A stretch of DNA of 64,000 nucleotides from a virus. Every line of letters starts with the position of its first letter. Position 1 is the stretch's first letter. The translations under genes were made by a program, and so were the position numbers. Of this stretch, positions 47,733 to 51,856 are shown piece by piece. Below the pieces are notes generated by a model. The model made no database searches. It had not been told where the DNA came from and was given only the letters and a program-made list of their open reading frames with translations. The stretch spans positions 124,001 through 188,000 of the IMG/VR virus record IMGVR_UViG_3300015265_000001, one strand, 5' to 3'.

Positions 47733-48215
47733 ATGAGTAAAAAACAACCCCCTATTACCTACAAGGTGCATACGGATGGCAGTGCGCTGGGTAACCCAGG
47801 TCCTGGAGGTTATGGGATTGTAGCGAGATGCGGAGACGAGGTTGTCACACTCTCGAAGGGTTACTACCGCACAACTAACAACCGTATGGAGTTGCTAGCG
47901 GTTATTGTTGCATTGGAGGAGTTCGCCAAGCCAGGTACAGTCTTTGAAGTTACGACCGATTCGATGTACGTGATCAATTCGGCTACTAAGTGGCTGAGTG
48001 GTTGGGCGCGTAGCAATTGGATCGCCTGGAAGACCCAACAGCCTATTAAGAACAAAGACCTCTGGCAACGCATTCAGCCTTTGCTGAAAGCTAACAAGGT
48101 TAAGTTCTTCTGGGTACGTGGGCACACTGGTGTACCAGATAACGAACTGGCGGATAAACTGGCTGTAGCTGCCGCTAATAATCCAACTGAAACTGATGAA
48201 GGTTTCATGGGGTGA
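47733..48215 (+). CDS. rnhA: Ribonuclease HI
   Basis: This 160-residue enzyme cuts RNA in RNA/DNA hybrids, removing primers during replication. All catalytic features are present: D15 in HTDGSALGNPGPGG, E53 in NNRMELLAV, D76 in TTDSMYV, H131 in VRGHTG and D141 in NELADKLA. The basic handle region (WLSGWARSNWIAWKTQQPI) is also kept. The length matches cellular RNase HI. It sits with ligase, DHH phosphoesterase and a small zinc protein in one plus-strand series. Confidence 0.93.
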   Translation: MSKKQPPITYKVHTDGSALGNPGPGGYGIVARCGDEVVTLSKGYYRTTNNRMELLAVIVALEEFAKPGTVFEVTTDSMYVINSATKWLSGWARSNWIAWKTQQPIKNKDLWQRIQPLLKANKVKFFWVRGHTGVPDNELADKLAVAAANNPTETDEGFMG

Positions 48216-48472: not shown

Positions 48473-49408
48473 ATGGGAACTGATATGGAATTTAAGCCGG
48501 TCTTGTGTATCTACCACAAAGACTGCCTGGATGGCATCGGAGCGGCTTGGGTCGTTTGGCGTCACTTCAAGAACATGGGCATTGAGATCGAACTCGTTGC
48601 CGCGAACTACAAAGACAAGATGCCCGACGTAGATGGCAAGGTGGTTTACGTAGTGGATTTCAGTTATCCTCGCCCTCTCATGGAAGACATGCTGCGTCGT
48701 GCCCATGATGTGGTGGTACTGGATCACCACACGTCGGCGAAGAAAAACCTCGAAGGACTCTTTGTGGTAGACGAGAGCCATTCGGGGGCAATGCTGGCCT
48801 GGAAGTATTTCAACCATACTCCTCCGCCACAAGGTTTGTTGTACGTTGAAGATCGTGACCTGTGGAAGTTCAAATACCCAGAGACCAATAACTGGGTAAC
48901 CGCGGCGTTCTCGTATCCTTTCAACGTCGAGCAGTTCGATGCGTTGATGAATACTGATCCATTGGACCTTATTCATGAAGGCAAAATACTGTTGCGTAAA
49001 CATCAGCAGGATTGTTCGCGAGTAGCCCTGAACACCCGCACGATGAAATGCATGGGCTATGAAGTACCTGTGGTCAACGCTAACATCTTCTTTGCGTCTG
49101 ACCTGGGTCACCTCCTTTCTGCAAACGCCCCGTTCGCGCTGATCTACATGGATCTGCCTGGCGGGCGTAAGTATTCCATTCGTTGTCAGAAAGACACTGA
49201 CTTCGATGTATCGCTTATCGCCGAGTACTTTGGTGGTGGCGGTCATAAAGACGCGTCCGGTTTCACGATCGCTTATGACGACAAGCGCTTTGCTCGCAGC
49301 CATGAGGTGCTTGATTACACCGTCTGGGAGAAGATCAAGGGAACCTGCGGCTACATGATGTACAGCCTCAAAACTGAACTCAAAGCAATTGCTGGGATCT
49401 TCAAATGA
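48473..49408 (+). CDS. DHH-family phosphoesterase
   Basis: The 311-residue protein has H15-K-D17 and D20 (YHKDCLDG), D62 in VVDFSYP, and D84-H85-H86 (VVLDHHTSA), the metal ligands of the DHH domain. It ends with a DHHA1-type GGGGHKDASGF substrate-binding loop near residue 255. Relatives include RecJ, NrnA/NrnB oligoribonucleases and cyclic dinucleotide phosphodiesterases. The short length favours an NrnB-like oligonucleotide or nucleotide phosphodiesterase rather than RecJ. A second ATG at 48485 is a possible start. Its TGA overlaps the next ATG. Confidence 0.85.
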   Translation: MGTDMEFKPVLCIYHKDCLDGIGAAWVVWRHFKNMGIEIELVAANYKDKMPDVDGKVVYVVDFSYPRPLMEDMLRRAHDVVVLDHHTSAKKNLEGLFVVDESHSGAMLAWKYFNHTPPPQGLLYVEDRDLWKFKYPETNNWVTAAFSYPFNVEQFDALMNTDPLDLIHEGKILLRKHQQDCSRVALNTRTMKCMGYEVPVVNANIFFASDLGHLLSANAPFALIYMDLPGGRKYSIRCQKDTDFDVSLIAEYFGGGGHKDASGFTIAYDDKRFARSHEVLDYTVWEKIKGTCGYMMYSLKTELKAIAGIFK

Positions 49409-49698
49409 AAAACAAGGCAGTTAAGTTCTTTCGTTATGCCGGTGTCTGGCGTTATAAGGAAATCGGTAAGGATGTAGCAGACGCAGTTGATACCCGGATG
49501 TTGGAAACCGTTCTGGGTGTTATGGGCGGGCCTTTGGTGTATGTCTGCCGCGATACCGGTAAACCAGAGTTTACCAAACTGCGCATTGAAGTACGTAACG
49601 GCTTTATCATCCGGGCTTCTGTAGCCGAAGACGATAACGTTCCTTTTGCAGAAGGTAAAGAGGTGGAAGAATTCTTCATCCGCCCATTGATGAATTAA
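49405..49698 (+). CDS. Unknown protein, 97 aa
   Basis: It starts in an ATGA overlap with the DHH gene, so translation is coupled. The 97-residue product is basic at the start (MKNKAVKFFRYAGVWRYKE) and mixed alpha/beta after it. No motif recognised. Confidence 0.68.
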   Translation: MKNKAVKFFRYAGVWRYKEIGKDVADAVDTRMLETVLGVMGGPLVYVCRDTGKPEFTKLRIEVRNGFIIRASVAEDDNVPFAEGKEVEEFFIRPLMN

Positions 49699-49709
49699 GG
49701 AAACCAGGT

Positions 49710-49877
49710 ATGGAAAGCGAATATGTGTTTGCTATCTCGGACGAAGGTACCCTGTGTCCAGTCCCAGGCAATGAGGCGCTTTACGAAGCAGTTAAAGACG
49801 CCTGCCATCGTTTGAGGCCACGCGTCGGTTCCGGTAAGACCATGGTACGCGTGGAAGTTAAACGTATCAAGGACTAA
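49710..49877 (+). CDS. Small protein, 55 aa
   Basis: A 55-codon ORF with AAGGAAACCAGGT before ATG 49710 fits exactly between its neighbours (11 and 5 base gaps). The product (MESEYVFAISDEGTLC start) ends in basic residues. Spacing and the ribosome site support it; function unknown. Confidence 0.62.
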   Translation: MESEYVFAISDEGTLCPVPGNEALYEAVKDACHRLRPRVGSGKTMVRVEVKRIKD

Positions 49878-49882
49878 CCACA

Positions 49883-50332
49883 ATGGAACTCGATTACAGT
49901 TATGTGAGCGTGCAGCTTAAACCAGAGCTACAGGCGGACATCATCAACGCTATGGTGTTGGCGGGTGTTTCTCCGGAAGCTAAGCACGAGCTGCACTGCA
50001 CGATGGTTTACGATAAGCGTGACATCGACAAACCGCTGTGCAACCTGATGCCTCCATCTAAGGAATTCAAGGCGAACGTTATCTCCTTGGAAACCCTGGG
50101 TGATGGCATGGTGTTTCATCTTACCAGCACTGATATGCTGGAAGAGTTCCGCCGGTTGAAAGATGAGGGTTACGTGCATTCGTACGGAACACCTTTGTTC
50201 CACATGTCGTTGAAGTATGATTTCGATAAACACGACATCCTCGCCATCAACCATGCGTTCGCTGATTGGGGTGGCCGTACGTTGATCTTCCACAACGAAC
50301 AGTTCGGCATCAAGAAACCCAAGAAGAAGTAA
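49883..50332 (+). CDS. 2H phosphoesterase, Acb1-like anti-CBASS candidate
   Basis: The 149-residue protein has the two H-x-T/S motifs that define 2H phosphoesterases: H38-C-T40 in ELHCTMVYD and H107-M-S109 in LFHMSLKYD, about 68 residues apart. Size, motif context (both followed by a hydrophobic-Tyr-Asp strand) and a basic C-terminus resemble phage Acb1 (T4 gp57B), which cleaves the cyclic nucleotides made by CBASS defence. RNA 2',5' or 2',3'-cyclic phosphodiesterase (LigT-like) is the alternative. It is the last gene of its unit and is followed by a strong terminator. Confidence 0.7.
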   Translation: MELDYSYVSVQLKPELQADIINAMVLAGVSPEAKHELHCTMVYDKRDIDKPLCNLMPPSKEFKANVISLETLGDGMVFHLTSTDMLEEFRRLKDEGYVHSYGTPLFHMSLKYDFDKHDILAINHAFADWGGRTLIFHNEQFGIKKPKKK

Positions 50333-50339
50333 CCCGGTA

Positions 50340-50390
50340 CTACTCCTACTCCCTTTACGGGGAGTAGGAGTAGGCTACCTTTATTTTTTG
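50340..50390 (+). terminator. Strong intrinsic terminator
   Basis: A perfect 14-bp stem (50340-50353 and 50360-50373) is followed by GCTACCTTTATTTTTT. It closes the ligase-to-phosphoesterase series. Confidence 0.85.
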
Positions 50391-50649: not shown

Positions 50650-50719
50650 CTGTGTGATTATTCAATAAAGATTATTCGCAATGACGAATGATCTAACCTC
50701 ACTTGAAAGGAGTACCGCT

Positions 50720-51856
50720 ATGAACACTAAGAACGTACAAGTTGAAAACACCGCATCCATGCTGGTAGCGGTAGTCTCCAACCTTCGTACTGAAAGTGCA
50801 CCGGAGGCCACTCAAATGGCCTATGTGAAATCGGTGATGCTGGACCAATCCCAGGTTCCTACCCGGGATCGTCAAGTGGTGCTGCAACTGGTGAACAACC
50901 AGCTCGGCACCAAATGGACTTTCAACCAGATCAAGAAAGCTGGTGAGTTTGTCCCAGGTGATACCGGCCCGGTCAAAGTTCAAGAACTGAACGGCGTCTC
51001 CCAGGTCAACGTCGGCGGCCAGCCAAATGAAGCTTCCTTCGTGGAGCCCAAGCTGACTGCCGATCACGCTCACCAACAATCGACTTCCCAGTCGACCACC
51101 ACTGCTCCTGACCACAACGGTCAAACCACCTCCAACGCAAACGAACAGGATGACAACACCATGAACGCACAAGCCAACATGAACAACGACACCGCCCAAT
51201 CCGTACAGGGTTTCGAAGTCGCCATGATCGCCGTCGGCCGCACCACCCCAGAACAGCGCGCTGCTGCCTGGATCGCTTACCTGGCTACCTCCCCTGAGCT
51301 GACCGCCAAGTGGGACGCCTTCCTGCTGGCCGCTGACAAAGCCACGTCGTTCGACGAAAACTTCATCACCTTCAGCGACAACCTGGGCGAAGAAGAAGGC
51401 AGCCAAGCTGTTCACGGCTTCATGCGCTGGTGTGCAGCCAACCAGCCGAAAGACGATGCTCACTACGCCGACAAGTCGCGTTTCAGCCTGATGGGTGATC
51501 GTGACGAAGGCGTTCGCACCAGCTGGATTGCAGCCGGTAGCGCAGTGATCGGCGGCGGCATGGAAATGTTCGCTCGCGGTGGTCTGACCGCTGGTTCGGC
51601 AATCGGTACTCTGGCAGGTTCCGTCGGCGCGTTCTTCGCCGGTGAACAAGTCGACGAGCACGTCGAAAGCCAATTCGGTCGTTACGTGGTCGGCGGCATG
51701 ATCGGTCTGGCCCTGGGTGGCGCAGGTTCGGCCCTGGGTCGCAGCCTGCTGCCTGGCAACAGCCTGATCAACATGGGTACCGCTGAAGTGGTTCCTGCTG
51801 CGATCGAAGTTCTGCCTGCCCCACAACAAGGCCAGGTCGGCTTCTTCGGCCTGTAA
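50720..51856 (+). CDS. Early protein with glycine-zipper membrane domain, 378 aa
   Basis: AAGGAG lies seven bases before ATG 50720, which is preferred to an ATG at 50681. Residues 1-100 are globular, 105-160 are a Gln/Thr/Asn-rich linker, and 160-255 are helical and acidic. Two Gly/Ala-rich hydrophobic segments (about 265-305 and 320-345, such as IGTLAGSVGAFFAGEQ and VVGGMIGLALGGAGSALG) follow. Codons become strongly C-ending after residue ~150. It shares extended promoter and membrane-domain style with 14736. An abundant early membrane-acting protein is inferred. Confidence 0.76.
   Translation: MNTKNVQVENTASMLVAVVSNLRTESAPEATQMAYVKSVMLDQSQVPTRDRQVVLQLVNNQLGTKWTFNQIKKAGEFVPGDTGPVKVQELNGVSQVNVGGQPNEASFVEPKLTADHAHQQSTSQSTTTAPDHNGQTTSNANEQDDNTMNAQANMNNDTAQSVQGFEVAMIAVGRTTPEQRAAAWIAYLATSPELTAKWDAFLLAADKATSFDENFITFSDNLGEEEGSQAVHGFMRWCAANQPKDDAHYADKSRFSLMGDRDEGVRTSWIAAGSAVIGGGMEMFARGGLTAGSAIGTLAGSVGAFFAGEQVDEHVESQFGRYVVGGMIGLALGGAGSALGRSLLPGNSLINMGTAEVVPAAIEVLPAPQQGQVGFFGL

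Follow-up and report, generated by a model that had tools for sequence, protein, structure and literature searches.

The window analyzed here, a stretch of 64,000 nucleotides, belongs to a virus record of 226,985 bases (G000). An open reading frame with an ATG start on the plus strand, at 49883..50332, encodes a protein of 149 residues which is a member of the Acb1 family of 2H phosphoesterases (PF23474; phrog_755). The original prediction had pointed to two motifs, H38-C-T40 and H107-M-S109, in a single-domain protein at this position, and both were confirmed in the reading frame; the first (49994..50002, plus strand) corresponds to H44-x-T46 of T4 Acb1 and the second (50201..50209, plus strand) to H113-x-T115. 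Directly 3' of the gene lies a hairpin followed by a T-rich run (50336..50379, plus strand), a probable intrinsic terminator with an MFE of -31.6 kcal/mol and a z of -6.4; no shuffled sequence was equally stable, and the hairpin was unlisted by a simple terminator pattern scan. Since this stable hairpin and T-rich tail follow the acb1 stop codon, the gene is probably the last of its operon.

The operon probably includes RNase H, orf84, a DHH-DHHA1 phosphoesterase, orf97 and orf55 upstream of acb1. The RNase HI gene (47733..48215, plus strand; phrog_531, 4e-49) serves as a syntenic marker, as it precedes acb1 in the genomes of EL, RisingSun, Vibrio phage 2 TSL-2019 and Miami and in the close contigs. 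The DHH-DHHA1 phosphoesterase (48473..49408, plus strand; phrog_4771, 3.4e-83; PF01368 DHH above cut-off) is a conserved neighbor in EL-like phages: L001-L003, EL, L016 and L017 all have it between the RNase H gene and acb1. This enzyme could degrade the linear nucleotide that Acb1 releases, or could serve nucleic-acid metabolism together with RNase H. The small protein encoded by orf97 (49405..49698, plus strand) could be assigned to no family despite its conservation in close relatives (86-91% identity in L001-L003; 37% in L016). A relationship of orf97 to JukA was also considered and set aside, the match covering 27 residues with a non-significant E of 0.053 and probably due to chance. Directly upstream of acb1 is the small frame orf55 (49710..49877, plus strand), which has a counterpart at the same position in L001-L003 (47-56% identical). 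The next gene downstream, orf391 (50681..51856, plus strand), is 71-74% identical in L001-L003, with parts 40-42% identical in EL, L016 and L017. Besides the window, six records (L001-L003, L016, L017 and EL) keep the order RNase H, DHH, acb1, orf391 homologue. The genomic neighbors of acb1 are nucleic-acid enzymes with no recognized counter-defense genes among them, which counts against an anti-CBASS reading.

With respect to the motifs themselves, an Hx[ST] pair was no better than chance, as 5 of the 33 ATG-started frames of 120-200 residues in the six frames of the window carried two such motifs, with a spacing of 50-95 residues in 3 of the 33. Similar pairs being so frequent by chance, the pair was rejected as proof of 2H identity; it is homology and conservation, not the motif pair, which place the gene far above chance. 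In an alignment of 24 relatives, the positions of T4 H44, T46 and H113 (here H38, T40 and H107) were invariant, and the fourth catalytic position was always Ser or Thr, so that the catalytic tetrad is conserved in 24/24 rows. At this fourth position, T115 of T4, all jumbo-phage rows have Ser (here S109), with Thr in the T4-like rows and L060 (alignment A3); Ser for Thr in the second motif is an accepted 2H variant. Comparison with the three closest relatives (L001-L003) gave dN/dS values of 0.05-0.09, which are rough given a high dS with synonymous sites near saturation, and on these ratios the gene is under strong purifying selection.

The family assignment was obtained by several routes. The sole Pfam match of the protein was PF23474, "Anti-CBASS protein Acb1", which scored 34.9 bits where the curated cut-off is 27, with no match to LigT or 2_5_RNA_ligase2. 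Its sole PHROG was phrog_755 (3.3e-17), which is labeled "RNA ligase" and into which T4 57B, the founding Acb1 (PMC9117128), also falls. In NCBIfam no model matched even T4 Acb1. A single-sequence search of PDB sequences returned spurious repeat-protein matches only, and the question was resolved with profiles. As the initial profile (A1) contained T4 itself, the search was repeated against circularity with ten jumbo-phage relatives and no T4. The three best matches of this T4-free profile among PDB sequences were all Acb1 entries (9q2g, 1.5e-9; 7t26, 3.7e-8; 9q2y, 1.2e-7), and no LigT-type chain was among its matches. Within the T4-free set, Pfam Acb1 was matched by 10/10 members (best 1.8e-17) and 2_5_RNA_ligase2, more weakly, by 7/10 (best 1.1e-5). 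Relatives were found in jumbo-phage records and not in bacterial genome contigs, with one weak partial match in plasmids, in collections from which records very close to the window may be missing. The Acb1 profile also matched the C-terminal part of the portal protein of phage Pam3 (PDB 8hds, residues about 481-595), where an Hx[TS]-like pair is present, with an E of 5.5e-5 when T4 was in the profile and 0.044 when it was not; this may be a 2H-like domain fused to a structural protein. In PHROG 755 and many GenBank records the Acb1 family carries misleading names, such as "RNA ligase", "putative structural protein" or, in BcepSauron, "prohead protease".

The structure of the 149-residue protein was predicted with AlphaFold2 from 24 sequences (the window and fetched loci, T4-like rows included) and no templates, giving one compact single-domain fold with a pLDDT of 90.9 and a pTM of 0.84. 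The last nine residues had a mean pLDDT of 71, and prediction from the single sequence reached a pLDDT of just 42. The fold is that of a 2H phosphoesterase, as had been proposed: the six model strands (E5-12, E38-44, E62-72, E75-81, E107-112 and E133-144) fit the 2H plan, and the catalytic motifs sit on E38-44 and E107-112. The original prediction had also called for a comparison with T4 Acb1 by structure and profile, and this placed Acb1 ahead of LigT. In the Foldseek search against the PDB, the phosphodiesterase/Acb1 of Burkholderia phage BCSR5 (9q2y/9q2g) came first with a TM of 0.72-0.74, FBB1 Acb1 (7t26) was next with a TM of 0.60, and E. coli LigT (5ldm) was found at rank 16 (E 6.7e-3). 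An Arabidopsis cyclic phosphodiesterase for ADP-ribose 1'',2''-cyclic phosphate (1jh6) was matched with a weaker E-value than FBB1 Acb1 and a TM of 0.68; as this TM exceeds that of FBB1 Acb1, the substrate cannot be read from fold alone. Among viral models the best match was gp120 of Erwinia phage RisingSun (TM 0.88, rmsd 1.4 A, 39% identity). RisingSun is likewise a phiKZ-type phage and its gp120 is named "Anti-CBASS protein Acb1" in UniProt; it differs from the window's protein in having no adjoining DHH gene that could be found and in having Gln, not Gly, at the position of T4 E141. While BCSR5 Acb1 is the closest solved fold (profile E 1.5e-9), it is only about 20% identical to the window's protein and is longer (165 residues), with a described lid. 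Among the closest known relatives is gp126 of Pseudomonas phage EL (YP_418159.1, annotated "RNA ligase"), which is 48% identical, has RNase H and DHH genes upstream and comes from a nucleus-forming phage. The EL genome measures about 211 kb, and it has no near identity to the window at the DNA level.

The same superfamily and the same chemistry would also suit a LigT-like 2',3'-cyclic phosphodiesterase which heals RNA, clearing the cyclic ends of nuclease-cut tRNA or other RNA for religation. In 2021, ahead of the discovery of Acb1, Iyer et al. predicted such a role for 2H proteins from other groups of jumbo phages and cited Motura QDH83605.1 as their example (PMC7824862). LigT-type enzymes share the 2H fold and Hx[TS] motifs with the window's protein and are present lower in the fold list, and the weak matches of 7/10 relatives to 2_5_RNA_ligase2 point the same way. 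Against this, LigT had a lower fold score and was not retrieved by the T4-free profile. In addition, the Motura protein (L083:923-1450, from an Achromobacter phage), which is cited as a specialist for RNA 2',3'-cyclic phosphate, proved to be an Acb1-family relative; across a segment of 111 residues it has ~39% identity with BCSR5 Acb1, and it is among the fold matches of the window's protein. RNA healing also needs a ligase, and neither the window's phage nor six other nucleus-forming carriers had an Rnl1, Rnl2 or RtcB match above cut-off, in a search for which T4 and Asteriusvirus EJP2 served as positive controls (both positive for Rnl1 and Rnl2). This counts against an RNA-healing role, as does the lack of tRNA genes in the window, and overall we regard such a role as unlikely.

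Comparison of the active site with the T4 and FBB1 enzymes (7t26, 7t27) was made at about 15% identity. In addition to PHROG, Pfam family and catalytic tetrad, the window's protein shares with them the two stacking aromatics, Y7 (T4 Y12) and Y101 (T4 F107); the Y12 position is aromatic wherever a row has a letter, and the F107 position in 24/24 rows. It differs from them in the Ser of its second motif, in lacking E141 and the W147 lid and, apparently, in lacking W74. T4 E141 contacts adenine N6, which explains the need of Acb1 for adenine (PMC9117128). Here this residue aligns with Gly142, and Gly is found in 7/7 EL-like rows in an alignment which crosses indels at this point; other jumbo phages have Lys, Gln, Asp or Glu, with Glu in the Vibrio jumbo-phage members. 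Only the T4-like rows and L060 had the lid Trp147, and no Trp occurs within the last 20 residues of the protein, whose C-terminus is Lys-rich. At the T4 W74 position the aligned residue is not aromatic, in a column adjoining an indel. E139, which aligns to T4 E138, was retained throughout the EL-like rows and could stand in for E141. The least secure step of the analysis is the alignment of the C-terminal part, where identity is 15-30%. As the Pfam family as a whole tolerates the loss of E141, this loss bears on substrate range, not on homology. Judged from these alignments, the chemistry is expected to be the same as that of T4 Acb1, while the base preference may differ and, because E141 and W147 are not kept, is probably not identical.

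These differences bring into view a cyclic-nucleotide degrader whose main target would be something other than an adenine-containing di- or trinucleotide of CBASS, such as a guanine or pyrimidine signal, the type III CRISPR signal cA3, a decoy of Panoptes or a messenger of the host like c-di-GMP. Gly in place of E141 in the seven EL-like members, the varied residues elsewhere, the absent lid Trp and the fold match to the Arabidopsis ADP-ribose cyclic phosphodiesterase are all in keeping with such an enzyme. However, all Acb1s assayed across the tree cleave 3'3'-cGAMP and cAAA (PMC9117128), the acidic E139 kept in the EL-like rows could serve instead of E141, and the Vibrio jumbo-phage members have retained Glu at the E141 position. 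We therefore give this reading a low probability. A related idea, which we advance only tentatively, is that the EL-like branch, having neither adenine reader nor C-terminal lid, cleaves different or a wider range of immune cyclic nucleotides (for example adenine-free ones), with the DHH neighbor possibly finishing the linear product.

Some 2H folds have lost catalysis, and a catalytically dead protein, acting as a ligand-binding sponge or as a structural component, was also considered. The homologues in RisingSun and CBB are annotated as structural, and a 2H-like domain is matched in the Pam3 portal. Retention of both His and of Thr/Ser in 24/24 relatives, together with the low dN/dS, argues against loss of activity, and this explanation is highly improbable.

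The window's phage was identified as phiKZ-type and nucleus-forming, as originally predicted, because it encodes both a PhuZ tubulin (G000:65927-66814, E 1.4e-17) and a nuclear shell protein (G000:74157-76088; phrog_4795, E 7.4e-117). The shell gene was found with the PHROG profile, plain tblastn with phiKZ chimallin having given no match. The nearest named relatives of the phage are the EL phages. PF23474 was searched in 15 phiKZ-type records, in 14 of which a shell gene was detectable. It was present in seven (the window's phage, EL, RisingSun, Vibrio 2 TSL-2019, Survivor, Miami and OBP) and absent from eight (phiKZ, 201phi2-1, SPN3US, Goslar, PCH45, Noxifer, RAY and CR5). In the tree, OBP and Survivor grouped with Asteriusvirus-type phages (support 85/86) and the other nucleus-forming carriers with EL (84/89). 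As the tree does not unite the nucleus-forming carriers, two acquisitions or losses of acb1 among them are possible, with weak support. In Asteriusvirus/Eneladusvirus-type jumbo phages the acb1 homologue adjoins a gene for a Sir2 NAD-dependent deacetylase (L008:1986-3186, L009:1989-3188 and L013:986-2429), and in two of these three a nicotinamide phosphoribosyltransferase is also nearby; these loci are possibly an island directed against both nucleotide and NAD-based defense.

With these alternatives weighed, the reading we consider likely, in line with the original prediction, is that the gene encodes an Acb1-family cyclic-oligonucleotide phosphodiesterase which shields this EL-like nucleus-forming phage from CBASS. 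We infer the chemistry and the class of substrate from the Acb1s of T4 and FBB1. Hobbs et al. assayed ten Acb1s from different parts of the tree and reported cleavage of 3'3'-cGAMP and cAAA by every one; T4 without acb1 was impaired >300-fold on CBASS cells (PMC9117128). By analogy, the two HxT/S motifs would bind the scissile phosphate of the substrate, a cyclic di- or trinucleotide whose 2'-OH would attack the 3'-5' bond with one His acting as base and the other as acid, in a reaction predicted to be metal-free. The ring would then open through a 2',3'-cyclic phosphate to give a linear product. The putative site of action is the cytoplasm, as the shell around the DNA would give no protection against a diffusing signal, and cleavage of the signal would stop the CBASS effectors from killing the cell. 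The premise that the shell cannot stop cyclic-nucleotide signaling is sound, since a type III-C CBASS of P. aeruginosa gives >10^5-fold protection against a phiKZ-like nucleus-forming phage (PMC10889362); the shell therefore does not stop CBASS.

The Acb1 family is already known, and the annotation already exists for close relatives in UniProt, as for the RisingSun homologue. New in this analysis are the family member in the window together with its operon setting, the uneven distribution of the family among nucleus-forming phages, and an EL branch that lacks both the adenine reader and the lid Trp. In the open-access literature we did not find a paper assaying an Acb1 from a nucleus-forming phage, which is not proof that none exists. 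A 2026 review describes the Tad1 of phiKZ as the sole anti-defense protein described in jumbo phages and notes that phosphodiesterases could act in this way (PMC13282480). For the annotation of public records, these results mean that the labels "RNA ligase" and "structural protein" are misleading for the Acb1 family. For nucleus-forming phages, an enzyme which most likely destroys the alarm molecules by which infected bacteria trigger their own suicide, carried by 7/15 phiKZ-type genomes searched but not by phiKZ, would be another solution to this problem beside Tad1, destroying the signal where Tad1 soaks it up. It also makes testable the question of whether the failure of the nucleus to stop CBASS is what obliges such a phage to carry an enzyme that destroys the signal.
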